A stretch of DNA of 64,000 nucleotides from Stenotrophomonas humi (GTDB lineage: Bacteria > Pseudomonadota > Gammaproteobacteria > Xanthomonadales > Xanthomonadaceae), in assembly GCF_001431415.1 (NCBI RefSeq), contig NZ_LDJI01000045.1, forward strand, positions 1 to 64,000. Direction: 5' to 3'. Made by a program: the position numbers and the translations under genes. This document shows, piece by piece, positions 6,056 through 19,691 of this stretch. Within the stretch, counting starts at the first letter, position 1, and every line of letters starts with the position of its first letter. The notes beneath the pieces were generated by a model. That model made no database searches and was not told where the DNA came from. It saw only the letters and a list, made by a program, of their open reading frames with translations.

Positions 6056-7150
6056 TCAATTGACCGCCAGAACCGTGCCATGTTCCACGTGGAACACCGT
6101 TGCCGGGCGCAGTTCAGACGCCAGCGCCGGAGGGGTTTCCGTCGCAGTGATGAATACCTGTGCCGGGGTTGCAGCCAAACGCTGCAGCACCCGCTGTTGG
6201 TGATTCCGGTCCAGTTCCGAACCCAGATCATCCAGCGCAATGACCGGCCATTCGCCACGTTGCGCCGCATAGTCGTCCGCCTGCGCCAGCAGACACGCCA
6301 GCGCCGTGAGCTTGGCCTGGCCACGTGAAAGTGCATCGCGCCCAGGAATCTGCGTGAAACCCACGGTCCAATCCGCCCGATGCGGTCCAACCGACGTGTA
6401 TCCCATCACCCGGTCACGGTCCCGCGCCAATAACAGTGCATCGGCCAGCGACATTTCATTGCGACGCCAACCCGGCTGAAGTTCCATGGTCTGCAATTGC
6501 AGACTCGGCGCCAATTCGGCCGCCAGGGTGACCGCGCGTTCCTGCAGACGATCCAGATACTGCTGCCGCCGCGATGTGAGCGGCGTTCCGGCCTGCGCCA
6601 GCTCCGAGTCCCAGGCATCCAGCTGCTTTCCCGGTGCTCCGGCTTTGAGCAGGGCGTTGCGCTGCTTCAAGGCTCGCGTGTAACGGCGCCAAAGCGGAAG
6701 GAAGTCTGGTTCCACGTGGAACAAACCCCAATCAACGAAGCGCCGACGCGGTTCACTGCCGCCACTGACCAGTGCATGGCTGCCCGGCTCGAACGTCACG
6801 ACCGCCAATGCGGCGCATAACGTACCCAGCTGTGGAACATCCTCGCCATCCAGTCGGCCTTTCCAGGTTTGGCCGCTGTGGCGCAACCCGGCACGGCGCA
6901 ATACGCCCCCTGCATCGGTGCCTTCCTGCCATTCCACGAAAACGTCCAGGTTTTCCGCGCCTTTCTGCACAAGACCATCGCGCACGCGCCCGCGAAAGCT
7001 TCGGCCATAAGCCATCAGATGCAGGGCTTCCAGCAAGCTGGTCTTGCCCGCGCCATTGGCACCGGTGATCAGGTTGATACCAGGACGGGGGACCAGTTCC
7101 ACCGAATCGAACCGGCGTACGCGGTTCAAGGCAACACGGACGATATGCAT
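6056..7150 (-). CDS. recF: DNA replication and repair protein RecF
   Basis: A 364-residue ABC/SMC-like ATPase that loads RecA at single-strand gaps together with RecO and RecR. Walker A is GANGAGKTSLLEAL (residues 30-43), the ABC signature region is ALSRGQAKL (about 280) and Walker B is VIALDDLGSELD (about 310). The start MHIVRVALNRVRRF aligns with the usual RecF N-terminus. Unusually, two copies of the palindrome GTTCCACGTGGAAC (parS-like) lie inside the gene, each encoding the tetrapeptide FHVE: once mid-gene (LFHVEPD) and once near the C-terminus (VFHVEHG). The gene is separated from dnaN by a 1.17-kb spacer, unlike the compact dnaN-recF spacing common in other bacteria. Confidence 0.96.
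   Translation of the reverse strand: MHIVRVALNRVRRFDSVELVPRPGINLITGANGAGKTSLLEALHLMAYGRSFRGRVRDGLVQKGAENLDVFVEWQEGTDAGGVLRRAGLRHSGQTWKGRLDGEDVPQLGTLCAALAVVTFEPGSHALVSGGSEPRRRFVDWGLFHVEPDFLPLWRRYTRALKQRNALLKAGAPGKQLDAWDSELAQAGTPLTSRRQQYLDRLQERAVTLAAELAPSLQLQTMELQPGWRRNEMSLADALLLARDRDRVMGYTSVGPHRADWTVGFTQIPGRDALSRGQAKLTALACLLAQADDYAAQRGEWPVIALDDLGSELDRNHQQRVLQRLAATPAQVFITATETPPALASELRPATVFHVEHGTVLAVN
6082..6095. promoter_or_regulatory. parS: parS-like centromere site 1 (inside recF)
   Basis: Perfect 14-bp palindrome GTTCCACGTGGAAC, extended to a 16-bp palindrome by flanking T and A (6081-6096). It matches the ParB-binding consensus known from Pseudomonas and Bacillus. It lies in the 3' end of recF. 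Confidence 0.85.
6709..6722. promoter_or_regulatory. parS: parS-like centromere site 2 (inside recF)
   Basis: Perfect copy of GTTCCACGTGGAAC, followed by A (6723), within the recF coding sequence. It encodes part of LFHVEPD in RecF. Confidence 0.85.
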
Positions 7151-7257
7151 TGACGCTCAAGGAAAGTCGCGATGCCGCTACGACGCTCGTGGCTGGCAGA
7201 GGCGCAGCTTAAAGCATCCGCCCCCCGAAGGTTCTGCTATCCCAATCTGCTTGAACG

Positions 7258-7271
7258 ACTCCACGTGGAAC
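7258..7271. promoter_or_regulatory. Degenerate parS-like site
   Basis: ACTCCACGTGGAAC keeps 12 of 14 positions of the palindrome seen in the other copies; the two outer left bases differ. It lies in the recF upstream region. Confidence 0.5.
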
Positions 7272-7375
7272 AGGCGAGATTTCTTCAAATCTGGCAGACG
7301 GCGGCAGTACAACCTTTGCAGATTTCACAGAATCTTGCCCCAAAAGCAGGAAAGGACAGCTCTGGGGGCAAGCCC

Positions 7376-7450
7376 TGTGTATAAGTAGGTCAACCTGTGG
7401 ATAAAAAGAGGCCTTGATACCCCGCACCAGCTTATCCACAGCTATCCACA
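7376..7450. promoter_or_regulatory. DnaA-box cluster, recF-dnaN side
   Basis: Four 9-mers fit or nearly fit TTATNCACA: TGTGTATAA (7376-7384, reverse), TGTGGATAA (7396-7404, reverse), TTATCCACA (7432-7440, forward) and CTATCCACA (7442-7450, one mismatch). They are followed within about 30 bp by an A+T-rich tract (7480-7535) of the kind that unwinds at origins. Box density and the adjoining AT tract are typical of a bacterial origin. Confidence 0.75.
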
Positions 7451-7600
7451 GGCTGGAAGGGCAGTTTTACAGGGGGTTTCATACCCAATTATATTATTAA
7501 TAACAACAACTTAGACTACTTCTACATAAAATCTGGCTCTACCATCACCACCATGCTTTAGATTTATTCTCAGATTTAAAGCATAGAGCTACGGGAAACC
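7395..7600 (+). repeat. Origin-like module, inverted copy A
   Basis: Read on the plus strand, this segment aligns with the dnaA-dnaN intergenic region read on the minus strand (9632 down to 9422). Both have the same order: DnaA boxes, an AT-rich tract, a conserved block, then a GAAACC end. The best block is 39 bp (7529-7567 against 9494-9456, starting AAATCTGGCTCTACCA) with only two mismatches. Outside it, similarity is patchy but collinear (for example CTGTGGATAAAA near the start, TTATCCACAGCT, and GGGTTTCA). In copy B the block leads into the dnaN start codon; here it leads into non-coding DNA. Confidence 0.85.
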
Positions 7601-8169
7601 GTTCCCGGAAGCAGGGCAAAAGCAGGGCTTTGTTTCTTTGAATTCTGGGGTGTCCACTCCAGCTGCGTCGCTCGGAATTCACGAAATAGAGGGTCGGTTT
7701 GAAAACTGCTTCTTTCCTCCTTTTGCCGCGATAGCGAATCTCGTCCTTTCTGGCTCTCTCGCTGGCCACGGTGCTTCTGAAATTGAGCATTTCTTGGTTC
7801 TGAAGAGCCTGGAATAGGTCACTCCGGACCAGTGAGACCAACGTGGCTCCAGACGTGACCGTTTCAGGGAAGAAATCAGGGTCTGGATGCGAACCTTGCC
7901 GACAACCACAGCAAAAGGAACGTCAGCAGAGTTCTCCAGAACAAGCGTCTTTCTGGGCTGTCCATGAAACGCAGGTTTTCGGACACGGATGCTTCGATCG
8001 ATTGGGTTGCGAATGCTCGCAGGGCACAGGGCAGGAGGGCCTACGGCTCTATTTACCGCTGGACGACTTCACCGTCGGCGGGTTGTTATCGGTACGGCGG
8101 CAACACCGGAAACCAGGGCTCCAATCGGAGACCAATAGATTCCAAGTGCGGATGAGCTCAGAACCATTG

Positions 8170-8183
8170 GTTCCACGTGGAAC
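8170..8183. promoter_or_regulatory. parS: parS-like centromere site 3
   Basis: Perfect GTTCCACGTGGAAC palindrome in the recF-dnaN spacer, about 140 bp beyond the dnaN stop codon. Confidence 0.85.
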
Positions 8184-8271
8184 GTAGCTTCACTGGAAAC
8201 CCATTGAACATTGCCTGCAGGTTGCCGCACAAAGCACGGCACCAAGCCGGCACTTCTCGGATTCGGGGCAC

Positions 8272-8296
8272 AAAAAACCCGGCTTTCGCCGGGTTT
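8272..8296 (-). terminator. Rho-independent terminator after dnaN
   Basis: Stem AAACCCGGC (8275-8283) pairs with GCCGGGTTT (8288-8296) around a 4-nt loop. On the minus strand it is followed by a T-run (the A-run beginning at 8272), placed about 25 bp past the dnaN stop. A parS-like palindrome lies between the stop codon and this hairpin. The hairpin could also stop plus-strand transcripts, though its T-run on that side is short. Confidence 0.85.
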
Positions 8297-8302
8297 CTCG
8301 AT

Positions 8303-8316
8303 GTTCCACGTGGAAC
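8303..8316. promoter_or_regulatory. parS: parS-like centromere site 4
   Basis: Perfect GTTCCACGTGGAAC palindrome located 6 bp after the dnaN stop codon, between the gene and its terminator. Confidence 0.85.
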
Positions 8317-8321
8317 GTCAG

Positions 8322-9419
8322 TTAGAGACGCAACGGCATCACCACGTGACGTGACTTCTCGCTGCTGGCTTCACGTACCAGCGCCGAGGAGTTGGAATCG
8401 CGCAACTGGATCACAACGTGCTCGTCGCGCAATGCCGATAGGGCATCCAGCAGGTAGTTCACGTTGAAGCCGATGGCCAGGTCGCTAACCTCGGTGTCGG
8501 CTTCGATTTCTTCCTGCGCTTCTTCCTGTTCCGGATTGTGCGCACTGAGTTTCAGCTGCCCCGGGGTCACTTCGACGCGGACGCCGCGGTACTTTTCGTT
8601 CGACAGGATCGCGGCGCGCTGCAACGAGGCCCGCAACATCTCGCGATCAACCTTCACTTCGCGATCGGCACCGATCGGAATCACGGCTTCGTAATCCGGG
8701 AAACGGCCGTCGATCAGCTTGGAGGTGAAGGTCACATCGTCGCGCTTGACGCGGATGTGGCTGCGGCCAACTTCCAACTCCACTTCGCGATCGCCGCCTT
8801 CCAGCAGGCGTTGCAGCTCGGTCACGCCCTTGCGAGGCACGATGATCTGACGCTTGCCGGTGCTGGTTTCCAGCGATGTTTCGCACAACGCCAGGCGATG
8901 GCCATCGGTGGCCACACAACGCAGGGTCTTGTCGCGCAGATCAAACAACAGGCCGTTGAGGTAATACCGGACGTCCTGCTGGGCCATCGCAAATGCGGTG
9001 CGTTCGATCAGTTCTTTCAACGCCGCTTCCGGCACGGCAACGCGCTCGGTGGCTTCGACTTCGTCAACCGACGGGAAATCATTGGCCGGCAACGTCGCCA
9101 GAGTGAAGCGGCTGCGACCGGCCTGCACGGTGATCTTGTCGCCTGTCTGCGAAACCGTGATGCGGCTGCCGTCGGGCAGGGCACGGATGATTTCGAACAA
9201 CTTGCGTGCCGGAATCGTGGTTTCACCGTCCTGGGCGTCTTCGACCGCGATGCGGGAGACCATCTCCACTTCCAGGTCAGTACCGGTCAACGACAACTGA
9301 CCGCCCTGCACCTGAACCAGAAAATTGGCCAGAACCGGCAGAGTCTGGCGGCGTTCAACCACGTTGACGACCTGGGCCAACGGCTTGAGAAAGGCTTCGC
9401 GCTGCAGTGTGAAACGCAT
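8322..9419 (-). CDS. dnaN: DNA polymerase III beta sliding clamp
   Basis: A 365-residue clamp subunit, the normal size, that encircles DNA and tethers polymerase III and other partners. The N-terminus MRFTLQREAFLKPLAQVVNV and the C-terminus VVMPLRL (hydrophobic end forming the partner-binding pocket) are typical of DnaN. Three repeated clamp domains fill the length. It is transcribed away from dnaA across the presumed oriC in the 369-bp gap. Its leader includes origin copy B, so clamp transcription starts inside or right next to origin sequence. It ends at a parS-like site followed by a terminator, so recF must have a separate promoter. Confidence 0.97.
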   Translation of the reverse strand: MRFTLQREAFLKPLAQVVNVVERRQTLPVLANFLVQVQGGQLSLTGTDLEVEMVSRIAVEDAQDGETTIPARKLFEIIRALPDGSRITVSQTGDKITVQAGRSRFTLATLPANDFPSVDEVEATERVAVPEAALKELIERTAFAMAQQDVRYYLNGLLFDLRDKTLRCVATDGHRLALCETSLETSTGKRQIIVPRKGVTELQRLLEGGDREVELEVGRSHIRVKRDDVTFTSKLIDGRFPDYEAVIPIGADREVKVDREMLRASLQRAAILSNEKYRGVRVEVTPGQLKLSAHNPEQEEAQEEIEADTEVSDLAIGFNVNYLLDALSALRDEHVVIQLRDSNSSALVREASSEKSRHVVMPLRL

Positions 9420-9421
9420 GT

Positions 9422-9632
9422 GGTTTCGTGCCCCTATGCTCTTAAAAGATGTGGGATAAATCTAAAGCTTGGTGGTGCTGGTAGAGCCAGATTTGGCCTA
9501 AAACCAACTTAAATATTTGTTTTTAAAGGGTTTATATGCATTGAAACCCTTGTACTACTGGCCCGGAACCGGAGGGTGAAGCTGTGGATAAATTTGGCGC
9601 TGAAAAGAAACCTGATTTTATCCACAGATTCT
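9422..9632 (-). repeat. oriC: Probable oriC / origin-like module copy B (dnaA-dnaN gap)
   Basis: The 369-bp gap between dnaN and dnaA holds two perfect DnaA boxes (9583-9591 and 9618-9626, opposite orientations), an AT-rich tract (about 9500-9540, with AAATATTTGTTTTTAAA) and the conserved block 9456-9494 shared with copy A at 7395-7600. In xanthomonads the dnaA-dnaN gap is the expected origin location. On the minus strand the module ends at the dnaN start. I call this the likely oriC on gene context and boxes; function was not tested here. Confidence 0.75.
9583..9626. promoter_or_regulatory. Paired DnaA boxes in dnaA-dnaN gap
   Basis: TGTGGATAA at 9583-9591 and TTATCCACA at 9618-9626 are perfect consensus DnaA boxes facing each other, 26 bp apart. 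Confidence 0.85.
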
Positions 9633-9648
9633 CCCGCGTTTACCCCCG

Positions 9649-9699
9649 AATCATGCACCGTTTTGTGCGATGACGCCTCTGCGTCGTCGGTGCATCATT
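9649..9699. other. Large nested hairpin between dnaA and oriC
   Basis: Outer arms AATCATGCACCG (9649-9660) and CGGTGCATCATT (9688-9699) pair with one mismatch. Inside, GATGACGC (9669-9676) pairs with GCGTCGTC (9681-9688) around CTCT, with one G-T type mismatch; outer and inner stems are partly alternative. There is no T-run, so it may be a weak dnaA terminator or a structural element at the origin border. Confidence 0.5.
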
Positions 9700-9788
9700 C
9701 GTCCCGCTTCCCGCCCTTACCTCCGGTGACCTGATGACTGACTCACGCAACCTGGCCATGCGCCCGTCCCCCGGTCTTCCCGAAACCG

Positions 9789-11120
9789 CTACTCGCTGAG
9801 TTTGCGGATGAGTTTGTCCCAGTCCTCGCGAAGCTTGCCGTCGGCTTCCATCAGCGTTCTGATCTGGCGGCAGGCGTGCAGCACGGTGGTGTGGTCGCGG
9901 CCGGCAAAGGCATCGCCGATTTCAGGCAGGCTGTGTTCGGTCAGCTCCTTGGTCAGCGCCATCGCGACCTGGCGCGGCCGGGCCAGCGAACGGGTACGGC
10001 GCTTGGAGAGCAGATCCTTGATCTGCAGCCCGTAGTAATCGGCCACGATCTTCTGGATGTTGGGAATGCTGATCGCCTGCTGCTGGGCACGCAGCAGATC
10101 GCGCAGGGTTTCCTGGGCAAATTCGGTGGTGATGGCGCGGCCGGTGAAGTTGGCGCGTGCGGTCAGCGTGTTGAGCGCACCTTCCAGATCACGCACGTTG
10201 GAGCGCATCTTCTTGGCAATCAGGAATGCCACGTCATCCGGGATTTCAGCGCCACGTTCCAGTGCTTTTGCCAGCACGATGGCGGCACGGGTTTCAAAGT
10301 CCGGCGGTTCGATGGCCACCGACAAACCCCAGGCCAGGCGCGATTTCAGGCGCGCTTCCAGGCCTTCCACTTCGCGCGGATAGCGATCGCAGGTCAGGAT
10401 GATCTGCTGCTTGCCATCGAACAAAGCGTTGAAGGTGTGGAAAAACTCTTCCTGGGTGCGGTCCTTGCCGGCGAAGAACTGGATATCGTCGATCAGCAGC
10501 GCGTCCACCTGCTGGAACTGGCGCTTGAACTGGTCCATGGTCTTTTCCTGCAGCGCCCGGATCATGGCGCTGAAGAACTGTTCCGAACGCAGATAGAGCA
10601 CTTTCGCCGCCGGATTGGCCTGGCGCATCGCATTGCCGGCCGCCAGCATCAGGTGGGTTTTACCCAGGCCGGTGCCGCCGTACAGCAGCAACGGATTGTG
10701 CGCGCGGTCGCCCGGCTTCTGCGCCGCCTGGAACGCCGCCGCCAGACCCAGCTGGTTGCTGCGGCCTTCGACGAAGTTGGCGAAGGTGTAATGCGAATCA
10801 AGATTGCCGTTGAACGGCACCACCGGGGCAGCAGGCGCGGCCGGGAAACCGGCCGGGATCGCGATCGGCGCCGGTTCCGGCGCACGCGGGCGGGAACCAA
10901 TCTCCAGGATCACCTCGCCGAAACCGGCGAAATGGGCTAGCAGTTCGGCAATACGCGGCAGGTAGCGCTCGCGCACCTGCTCGACAATGAAGGCATTGGG
11001 CGCGTACAGCACGAGGCTGTCGGCACGTTGGTCGGCCTGTAACGGCTTCAACCAGGTGTGGACATCTTCGGGCGGGAATTCCGCCTCCAGACGTTCAAGG
11101 CAAAGAGACCATGCATCCAT
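9789..11120 (-). CDS. dnaA: Chromosomal replication initiator DnaA
   Basis: A 443-residue AAA+ initiator that binds DnaA boxes and melts the origin. Domain I opens with [19 protein letters not shown], a short Pro/Ala-rich linker follows (about 78-105), Walker [13 protein letters not shown] is at about residues 147-158 and Walker [11 protein letters not shown] at about 210. The C-terminal DNA-binding signature with [14 protein letters not shown] is at about residues 405-420. The short linker (total about 440) is typical of xanthomonads. It is transcribed away from rpmH, with DnaA-box-like sequences in the dnaA-rpmH gap that could serve autoregulation, and toward the probable oriC. Confidence 0.98.
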
Positions 11121-11246: not shown

Positions 11247-11267
11247 TTATTCACAGGATCATCCACA
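11247..11267. promoter_or_regulatory. DnaA-box-like pair in dnaA-rpmH gap
   Basis: TTATTCACA (11247-11255) fits TTATNCACA and TCATCCACA (11259-11267) has one mismatch. They lie between the divergent dnaA and rpmH genes, about 130 bp upstream of dnaA, where DnaA could control its own transcription or that of rpmH. Confidence 0.55.
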
Positions 11268-18077: not shown

Positions 18078-19691
18078 ATGACGACAACCGTATCGGTGAC
18101 GCTGGACAGCGTCGCCTGGCACACGCCTGATGGGCGCTGCCTTTTTTCCGACCTCAACGCTCGGTTCGACGCACGGCCCACGGGCCTGGTCGGGCGCAAC
18201 GGCGTGGGCAAAAGTGTGCTGGCGCAGCTGCTGGCAGGCCTGCGCGAGCCCAGTGCCGGGCAATGCCGGCGTATCGGCCGGGTGCATTACCTGGCCCAGC
18301 AGGTGGCCGCCCCTGCGGGGCAGCGCGTGGCTGAACTTGCGGCTGTGGATAACGTGGTGGATGCATTGCGCCGGATCGAGGCCGGCAGCACGCAACAAGC
18401 CGATTTCGACACCGTGGGCGAGCAATGGGGCTTGCGCGACAACCTGCAGCAGGCGTTGGCCGATGCCGGCCTGCAAGGCGTGGATGTTGATACGCCTGTG
18501 GACAACTTGAGCGGCGGGCAACGCATGCGCGTCGCCTTGGTGGGCGCATTGCTGCAGCCGGCGGAGTTGTTGATCCTCGACGAGCCCAGCAACCATCTCG
18601 ATCTGGCCGGCCGGCAATGGCTGCAGCAACAACTGGCACAACGTGGGCAGGGCTATCTGCTGGTCAGCCACGACCGGCTGTTGCTGGATCAGGTGCAGCG
18701 CATCATCGAACTGTCGCCGCAGGGGCTAAGCAGCCATGGCGGCAACCACGAAAGTTATACACAGGCGCGTGCTGCGGAGAAGGCGGCGGCGGAAACCCTG
18801 CTGCAGCAGCGCAGGCAGGAGCGCCGCAAAGGCGAGCAGGCACTGCAGGCGCAGCGGCAACGGTTGGAGCAGCGCAGCGCACGCGGCAATCGTGACGCCG
18901 CGAACGCCAATCAGGCACCGATCCTGCTGGGATTGCAGCGGCAACGGGCCCAGGCCAGCCTGGGCAAGGCCAAACAGCAACTGCAGCAGCGGCACGAAAC
19001 CCTGCATGATGCGGTACGCCAGGCACAGGCGCTGATCGACGAACCGGCGCCGGTGCTTCTGCCTCCGGTGCTGGAAAAAACCGCGCCCGAATGGGTCGCA
19101 CGGCTGCAGCAGGTGCAGTTGCCCTTTGTTGCGGAATCGCTGCAGTGCCTGGAGCTGGCCTTGCGTCGTGGCGAGCGCGTCGCTGTCAGCGGCATCAATG
19201 GCGCGGGCAAATCGACGCTGCTGAAAGTGCTCGCCGGACAACTGGCACCACGCTCAGGTGAAGCGCAGCTGCTTGTGCCGGCGGCGTTGCTGGATCAACA
19301 GTTGGAGCTGTTGCCCGCCCACCTCAGCGCGCTGCAGGGCGTGCGTGCATGCAACCCGCAGATGGAGGAGGGCGAGCTGCGCAGTCGCCTGTCTTTGCTG
19401 GGGCTGGATGCAACCCAGGCGCAGCTGCCATCGGCGCAGCTCAGTGGCGGGCAGCGATTGAAAGCGGCACTGGCCTGCGCACTGTATGCCGAGCCCCCGG
19501 CGCAGCTGTTGCTGCTGGACGAGCCGGGCAATCACCTCGACCTGGATGCGCTGGCGGCACTGGAATCACTGCTGCGCCAGTACCGCGGCACCCTGGTGGT
19601 GGTATCGCATGACGAAGCGTTTCTGCAGGCCATCGGCATCAGCGCGCGGTTGCGGGCCACGGAGGAAGGTTGGCGCTGGCAACCTTCCTGA
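18078..19691 (+). CDS. ABC-F family ATPase (duplicated cassette)
   Basis: A 537-residue soluble protein with two ABC ATPase cassettes and no membrane segment, the ABC-F plan. Walker A motifs are GRNGVGKS (39-46) and GINGAGKST (about 373), signatures LSGGQRMRVAL (about 150) and LSGGQRLKAAL (about 453), and Walker B LLILDEPSNHLDL and LLLLDEPGNHLDL. The central linker is rich in Gln/Arg and probably coiled coil, like the P-site tRNA interaction motif. ABC-F proteins act on stalled ribosomes; some confer resistance to ribosome-targeting drugs, but the sequence does not tell which subtype this is. I choose ATG 18078 (GGA 9 nt upstream) over in-frame starts at 18051 and 18066. A 237-bp gap without features separates it from mnmE. 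Confidence 0.85.
   Translation: MTTTVSVTLDSVAWHTPDGRCLFSDLNARFDARPTGLVGRNGVGKSVLAQLLAGLREPSAGQCRRIGRVHYLAQQVAAPAGQRVAELAAVDNVVDALRRIEAGSTQQADFDTVGEQWGLRDNLQQALADAGLQGVDVDTPVDNLSGGQRMRVALVGALLQPAELLILDEPSNHLDLAGRQWLQQQLAQRGQGYLLVSHDRLLLDQVQRIIELSPQGLSSHGGNHESYTQARAAEKAAAETLLQQRRQERRKGEQALQAQRQRLEQRSARGNRDAANANQAPILLGLQRQRAQASLGKAKQQLQQRHETLHDAVRQAQALIDEPAPVLLPPVLEKTAPEWVARLQQVQLPFVAESLQCLELALRRGERVAVSGINGAGKSTLLKVLAGQLAPRSGEAQLLVPAALLDQQLELLPAHLSALQGVRACNPQMEEGELRSRLSLLGLDATQAQLPSAQLSGGQRLKAALACALYAEPPAQLLLLDEPGNHLDLDALAALESLLRQYRGTLVVVSHDEAFLQAIGISARLRATEEGWRWQPS

Follow-up and report, generated by a model that had tools for sequence, protein, structure and literature searches.

Two oriC-like modules on either side of dnaN

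The stretch of Stenotrophomonas humi DNA analysed here (the window; 64,000 nucleotides of contig NZ_LDJI01000045.1) has the usual gene order rpmH, dnaA, dnaN, recF, gyrB, with dnaA through gyrB on the minus strand. Our subject is the spacer between dnaN and recF. It holds an inverted copy (copy A) of the module that makes up the family's replication origin, oriC, in the gap between dnaA and dnaN (copy B), a gap of 369 bp in the window. We take the three genes to be dnaA, dnaN and recF from their position, tblastn matches among relatives and general knowledge of such loci. A dnaN match was found in at least 288 of the 297 family genomes searched (best matches listed). The features of the locus, with genes drawn from a list of open reading frames (ORFs), are the following.

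6056-7150, minus strand: recF, presumably (ORF list and tblastn against relatives; name from position and general knowledge)
7151-8321, no strand: spacer of 1171 bp between dnaN and recF, for the most part unalignable except in copy A (alignment of relatives)
7376-7384, minus strand: extra DnaA-box-like site TTATACACA, outside copy A (sequence match; the same site or TTATGCACA in many Stenotrophomonas copies A)
7389-7595, plus strand: copy A, candidate for a second oriC module, inverted, between dnaN and recF (profile R1, E 1.5e-35; similarity to copy B; nhmmer, with only dnaA-dnaN gaps in the model, E 8e-34)
7396-7404, minus strand: DnaA box A1, exact TTATCCACA (exact match)
7432-7440, plus strand: DnaA box A2, exact TTATCCACA (exact match; TTATGCACA in the sister genome G029)
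7442-7450, plus strand: DnaA-box-like site CTATCCACA of copy A (sequence match)
7476-7535, no strand: putative copy A unwinding element, with the lowest stability of any 60 bp in the 64-kb window (computed duplex stability)
7529-7567, plus strand: conserved core of copy A, ACCATCACCACC...GCTTTAGATTTAT (A/B alignment, relatives)
8322-9419, minus strand: dnaN, sliding clamp, between modules A and B (ORF list, dnaN matches of relatives)
9421-9634, minus strand: copy B, family-wide oriC module in the dnaA-dnaN gap (profile R1, E 1.6e-42; kept in carriers and non-carriers of copy A)
9456-9494, minus strand: conserved core of copy B (A/B alignment)
9498-9557, no strand: putative unwinding element of copy B, the second least stable 60 bp of the window (computed duplex stability)
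9583-9591, minus strand: DnaA box B2, exact TTATCCACA (exact match)
9618-9626, plus strand: DnaA box B1, exact TTATCCACA (exact match)
9789-11120, minus strand: dnaA, initiator, presumably (ORF list and tblastn against relatives; name from position and general knowledge)

A sequence-only reading of this stretch had proposed that an origin module, with DnaA boxes, an AT tract and a 39-bp core differing at two positions, was duplicated and inverted around dnaN. Pairwise local alignment of positions 7380-7660 with the reverse-complemented stretch 9420-9660 bears out the inverted similarity. The two copies are collinear over ~210 bp with a score of 80, compared to a mean of 18.6, a standard deviation of 2.7 and a maximum of 33 in 500 dinucleotide shuffles, and the cores (7529-7567 and 9494-9456) have exactly two mismatches. 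Each module contains two exact TTATCCACA boxes facing each other, at 7396(-)/7432(+) in copy A and 9618(+)/9583(-) in copy B. In both copies the facing pair is followed by GGGTTTC, then by AT-rich sequence and by a core that contains ACCA-CACCACC and GATTTAT, and the module ends near AGCATAG. The two least stable 60-bp stretches of the window lie in the modules, the lowest in copy A and the next in copy B. The modules point at each other, with the cores towards dnaN and the boxes outwards.

Several of the features by which an oriC is recognized are found in copy A: a DnaA-box cluster (two exact boxes and two near ones, within it or next to it), an AT-rich element of low stability next to the boxes, and homology to the family's oriC gap with the same constrained columns. 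Searching the window's own draft genome with profile R1 gave only two full-length matches, copies A and B, and no third module among the 150 of 444 first-look candidates that were scored; two other matches are partial and lie on the opposite strand over boxes.

Distribution, history and constraint of copy A

We compared 150 loci: 30 from a dnaN search of the 297 family genomes, 40 further stretches (two genomes twice) and 80 named loci. These represent 68 family genomes, the window's own included, plus the 80 named loci, partly from the same genomes, and 139 remain after removal of identical gap pairs. Group labels (g1, g44, g18, g7, g2 and others) were assigned by us. We searched all loci with nhmmer, using a profile of 147 dnaA-dnaN gaps that still held duplicates; this profile replaced an earlier carrier count by score threshold (40 of 139), which had missed L090 and L014. 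An inverted copy A lies between dnaN and recF in 42 of the 139 distinct loci, always on the opposite strand and with E values of 1.2e-17 or better, and the profile finds no inverted match downstream of dnaN in the remaining 97. The carriers comprise 24 Stenotrophomonas loci of g1, three of g44, 12 Xanthomonas sensu stricto loci (g18 and named), one locus each of g43 and g53, and S. koreensis. Copy A is thus present in all 39 sampled loci labelled Stenotrophomonas (g1, g44) or Xanthomonas sensu stricto, and in three others. The non-carriers are 16 g7 loci, 18 of Pseudoxanthomonas, one of g2 and 62 others, for example Lysobacter and Luteimonas. The dnaN-recF gap has a median length of 979 nt in carriers compared to 117 nt in non-carriers. 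The order and orientation of dnaA, dnaN and recF are identical in all 150 loci, and the copy B module is conserved in carriers and non-carriers, as seen in an alignment of a third of the carriers and a sample of the non-carriers. In a set of 151 genomes from the order, partly the same as the family set, two matches with E of 1e-6 or better occur in all ten g1 genomes and the sole g18 genome, and one match each in 14 other same-family genomes among those listed with a match; G450, from outside the family, has two overlapping matches on opposite strands.

The centres of the two modules lie 1.4-2.8 kb apart across the 42 carriers, with dnaN in between. The stability minimum of the dnaN-recF gap falls within copy A in 41 of them, and the mean minimum in carriers is 71.5 kcal/mol in this gap and 73.8 in the dnaA-dnaN gap. 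The corresponding dnaN-recF value in non-carriers is 90.2, a weak comparison as carrier gaps are much longer. An exact TGTGGATAA is found in 33 of the 42 copies A, and T[AG]TCCACA in 40. Box-like sites with at most one mismatch number 3.05 on average in copy A plus ~60 bp of flank at either end, compared to 1.95 for the dnaA-dnaN gap (unequal stretches), and two of the 97 non-carriers have any such site in their shorter dnaN-recF gaps. A basal unwinding system that includes DnaA-trios is described in passages of PMC6669920 and PMC10721633. The longest trio runs on the two strands average 1.55 and 1.67 in copies A (33 of 42 usable), only slightly above the shuffled values of 1.39 and 1.40; for copies B (38 of 42) they are 1.37 and 1.63 compared to 1.23 and 1.45. 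The GAAACC end that the sequence-only reading had assigned to both modules is a chance match and was rejected as part of the repeat, as it occurs near the end of copy A in one of 42 carriers, the window itself. In other carriers the shared block stops near AAAGCA, and the final bases of the dnaN leader therefore lie outside the duplication.

A quick gene tree of 78 loci, based on first and second codon positions of dnaA, dnaN and recF, places all 42 carriers inside one starred group of 53 rows that also includes the g7 and g2 rows. The distribution of carriers can be explained with two changes of state, and the formal minimum is two gains. We also built a module tree from 28 of the 42 copies A and 34 copies B (28 from carriers and six from non-carriers), in which a single branch with support 95/93.8 separates all A rows from all B rows. 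Owing to this one branch, the duplication looks single and old, with later losses in g7 and g2. The comparison with relatives thus agrees with the proposed duplication and inversion around dnaN, in the form of an old and retained copy A.

Copy A forms an alignable island, and identity in the surrounding spacer drops to ~0.0-0.4. In 12 S. maltophilia-like loci, the 20-column blocks of the copy A core have identities of 0.93-1.00, compared to 0.78 at the fourfold sites of dnaN; the exceptions to low spacer identity are its ends at recF and dnaN, short blocks towards recF and the 60 columns that follow the core. The core values are 0.87-0.91 compared to 0.66 in 12 Xanthomonas loci, where the stretch from boxes to core reaches 0.54-0.80, and 0.84-0.93 compared to 0.75 in nine other Stenotrophomonas loci. 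The per-column entropy of the 42 copies A correlates with that of the 97 non-carrier origins (Spearman 0.65 over 190 columns), whereas the best of 170 circular shifts, a control that omits shifts of less than 10 columns, gives 0.29. In copies A the match to the non-carrier consensus is 90.5% over 44 conserved columns and 51.7% over the 146 others, and the non-box core is as conserved as the boxes. Copies A also have extra, clade-specific box-like sites, as judged from an alignment with L078 omitted, L090 added and L014 not yet included: many Stenotrophomonas have TTATACACA or TTATGCACA towards recF, and the 12 Xanthomonas rows have TGTGCATAA towards dnaN.

Three smaller sequence details concern the modules. 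DnaA boxes apart, no part of the family's oriC gap is more conserved than the ACCA-CACCACC motif followed by GATTTAT (for example at window 9456-9494). AAATCTG recurs inside the copy A core. S. maltophilia-like genomes retain, on the recF side of copy A, a pair of the type TTGAAATCTG...CAGATTTCAA, and the window has a similar one at ~7280-7340.

DnaA boxes and other sites near the origin

Exact DnaA boxes are crowded in the window, with 12 compared to 0.13 expected, and the whole genome has 41 compared to 10 for a reversed control. The eight window boxes outside the modules are at 18344, 19869, 21434, 29770, 31511, 43935, 46508 and 47897. Another contig, C47 (15 kb), has 12 further exact boxes (L153 2774-14373), and together the window and C47 hold 24 of the 41, modules included. 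C47 is probably near the origin, since some of its boxes and their flanks align to the origin regions of G029 and of another genome, G209. In G029, 22 of 40 exact boxes are found within 78 kb around dnaN (G029:C1:24460-102405). Seven of the eight window boxes outside the modules are intact there, with flanks of 80-90% identity, and one is changed; the 12 boxes of C47 divide into three intact, two changed and seven without an alignment. Only one of the eight aligns to G209 and does not read as a box there; of the C47 boxes, one is kept in that genome. No box crowd near the origin was seen in seven other genomes (9-14 boxes each; G221 in many contigs).

Some further sites were observed. On C47, four exact DnaA boxes stand within ~270 bp (L153 10652-10919), upstream of what we take to be an fbp-like gene, and could titrate DnaA. 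An inverted pair of exact boxes 5 bp apart, elsewhere in the window's genome (G000:C56:189884-189906; L154 1501-1523), adjoins a gene that, from a familiar motif, is presumably priA-like; an exact-box pair at the same spacing is also present in all eight other genomes with boxes listed. The window contains four exact GTTCCACGTGGAAC palindromes, presumably parS-like, of which those at 6082 and 6709 lie in recF and those at 8170 and 8303 in the spacer next to dnaN, compared to none in 100 shuffles. Upstream of dnaA, at 11247-11267, the box-like sites TTATTCACA and TCATCCACA possibly serve autoregulation.

Copy A as an origin element

Judging from sequence comparison, we hold with moderate confidence that copy A is a complete second oriC module, which most probably arose once, when the dnaA-dnaN origin was duplicated and inverted across dnaN in an ancestor shared by Stenotrophomonas and Xanthomonas sensu stricto, and was selectively kept as an origin element. 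DnaA would bind the facing box pair of copy A, and a DnaA oligomer would spread from the boxes to the AT-rich element and the ACCATCACCACC/GATTTAT core. The duplex would melt at this AT-rich element and core, as in copy B, and helicase could be loaded there. Since the two modules face each other with dnaN between them, this would amount to a twin or bipartite chromosome origin, and its two orisomes might work in parallel or cooperate by looping out dnaN. A further claim, possible if doubtful, is that Stenotrophomonas and Xanthomonas start the chromosome from two complete, opposite-facing oriC modules around dnaN. DnaA is reported to engage one strand of a melting origin, and because the modules are mirror images each could load one helicase; alternatively, both modules might fire, in which case dnaN would be among the earliest genes copied.

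Several observations weigh against copy A as a complete and active origin element of single descent. The fourfold-site skew of dnaN gives no sign of initiation shifted to copy A and does not separate the alternatives, and for dnaA, dnaN and recF the groups differ without pattern as to which copy is used (duplicate dnaN rows dropped, group labels assigned by hand). Relatives in g7 and g2 live without copy A. Copy A evolves faster than copy B, as seen by eye from longer end branches, and some copies are worn: that of S. koreensis (L078) is without most of the core, and that of g53 (L044) sits on a very long branch. Parts of copy A between boxes and core, at 0.54-0.64 in the Xanthomonas set, are conserved no better than fourfold sites. 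Approximately unbiased (AU) tests do not reject a grouping of A with B within Xanthomonas (p 0.23) or within g1 Stenotrophomonas (p 0.25), and the tree program flagged long branches on the module tree; for these reasons some conversion between the copies may have occurred. A long A/B stretch matches well in the window's sister L007, and L003 and L007 each have core letters common to their own A and B. Yen and colleagues, in 2002, are said to have found the 273-bp dnaA-dnaN gap of X. campestris enough for autonomous replication. Copy A is for this reason probably dispensable on a plasmid, and an auxiliary role is more likely than an indispensable one. The passages on oriC in PMC11573517 and PMC8453159, which cite Yen et al. 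2002, place the Xanthomonas origin between dnaA and dnaN, with three DnaA boxes.

The origin described in those passages (PMC11573517, PMC8453159) shares both its gap and its type of box with copy B. They name the dnaA-dnaN gap alone, whereas here copy A is also found beyond dnaN, including in 12 Xanthomonas sensu stricto loci. According to a passage in PMC4285127, the bipartite origins of Bacillus subtilis and Helicobacter pylori have boxes split around a gene, usually dnaA, and an unwinding element in one sub-region. The present locus is similar in having two close DnaA-box clusters with a gene between them, and differs in that this gene is dnaN and that the modules are homologous, inverted and each provided with a computed low-stability element. 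The double origins in DoriC of Acidaminococcus fermentans and Mycobacterium bovis BCG Pasteur involve a second dnaA gene or cluster copy, as stated in part of PMC4403523. They resemble our case in the duplication of an origin near the dnaA cluster; here, in contrast, only the ~210-bp module is copied, in inverted form, and it is kept across genera. The literature matches listed contain no account of a second oriC module in this family, a search with DoriC tables and supplements outside its scope, which does not establish absence from print. Why some origins are split is called an open question in the relevant passage of PMC4285127.

Other explanations of copy A have to be weighed. It could be a DnaA-titration or reactivation site that times initiation at copy B and never melts or loads helicase itself, which we consider rather unlikely. 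The box-like sites around copy A outnumber those around copy B (3.05 and 1.95, over unequal stretches), and the crowding of exact boxes near the origin in the window's sub-lineage makes DnaA sequestration there plausible. Sites of this kind, datA and DARS, are defined as DnaA boxes without a conserved unwinding element; copy A is like them a DnaA-box cluster outside the main origin, and is set apart from them by its low-stability element and the family oriC core. The constraint on copy A spans non-box columns, both in the AT-rich stretch and in the core, which argues against mere titration, and in 41 of 42 carriers the gap has its low duplex stability centred on copy A. Titration by boxes alone, a proposal of the sequence-only reading, leaves the conserved non-box columns unexplained. 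Conservation also disfavours the idea that copy A is a functionless, decaying relic of an old duplication. The faster evolution of copy A, its few worn copies and its absence in g7 and g2 would fit a relic; nevertheless copy A has the same constrained columns as the origins of other genera and stands as a sequence island in a free-running spacer in three species sets, which makes a relic very improbable.

Two further explanations, each raised in part by the sequence-only reading, concern dnaN itself. In the first, copy A would be a second copy of a promoter or other regulatory element from the dnaN leader, driving transcription into the spacer; the resulting RNA would affect dnaN or the origin. 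The module end nearest the dnaN start (GCTTTTGATTTAT to AAAGC) is indeed largely retained in copy A, and one sigma-70-like match is found within it, but this equals the shuffle mean of 1.0. The scan for promoters and terminators gives no excess over shuffles, and Rfam finds no known structured RNA in window 6900-9900. Moreover, between copy A and the dnaN stop the spacer is anywhere from 56 to 1446 nt long and mostly unalignable between species. A second promoter with a product is thus a weak and improbable proposal, and a duplication of the dnaN leader as such fails, as its last bases are unshared and GAAACC occurs in one of 42 carriers. The inverted arms on either side of dnaN were also suggested to act as a switch that flips the gene by recombination. 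We rejected inversion of dnaN, as none of 150 loci is inverted. The longest exact run common to both gaps in the 42 carriers has a median of 14 and a maximum of 23 nt, and A and B fall on opposite sides of one tree branch, which leaves such a switch a negligible chance.

Bacterial chromosomes are taken to have one oriC. If copy A is a second oriC module, a chromosome thought to have a single start may have a paired start site. Two homologous, inverted modules close together in two well-studied genera, with close relatives that live without the second, offer a natural comparison. The role of the second module, whether in firing, timing, loading of a second helicase or robustness, becomes directly testable. 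The annotation of oriC in Stenotrophomonas and Xanthomonas would also change, as the location given in the published passages is the dnaA-dnaN gap only.

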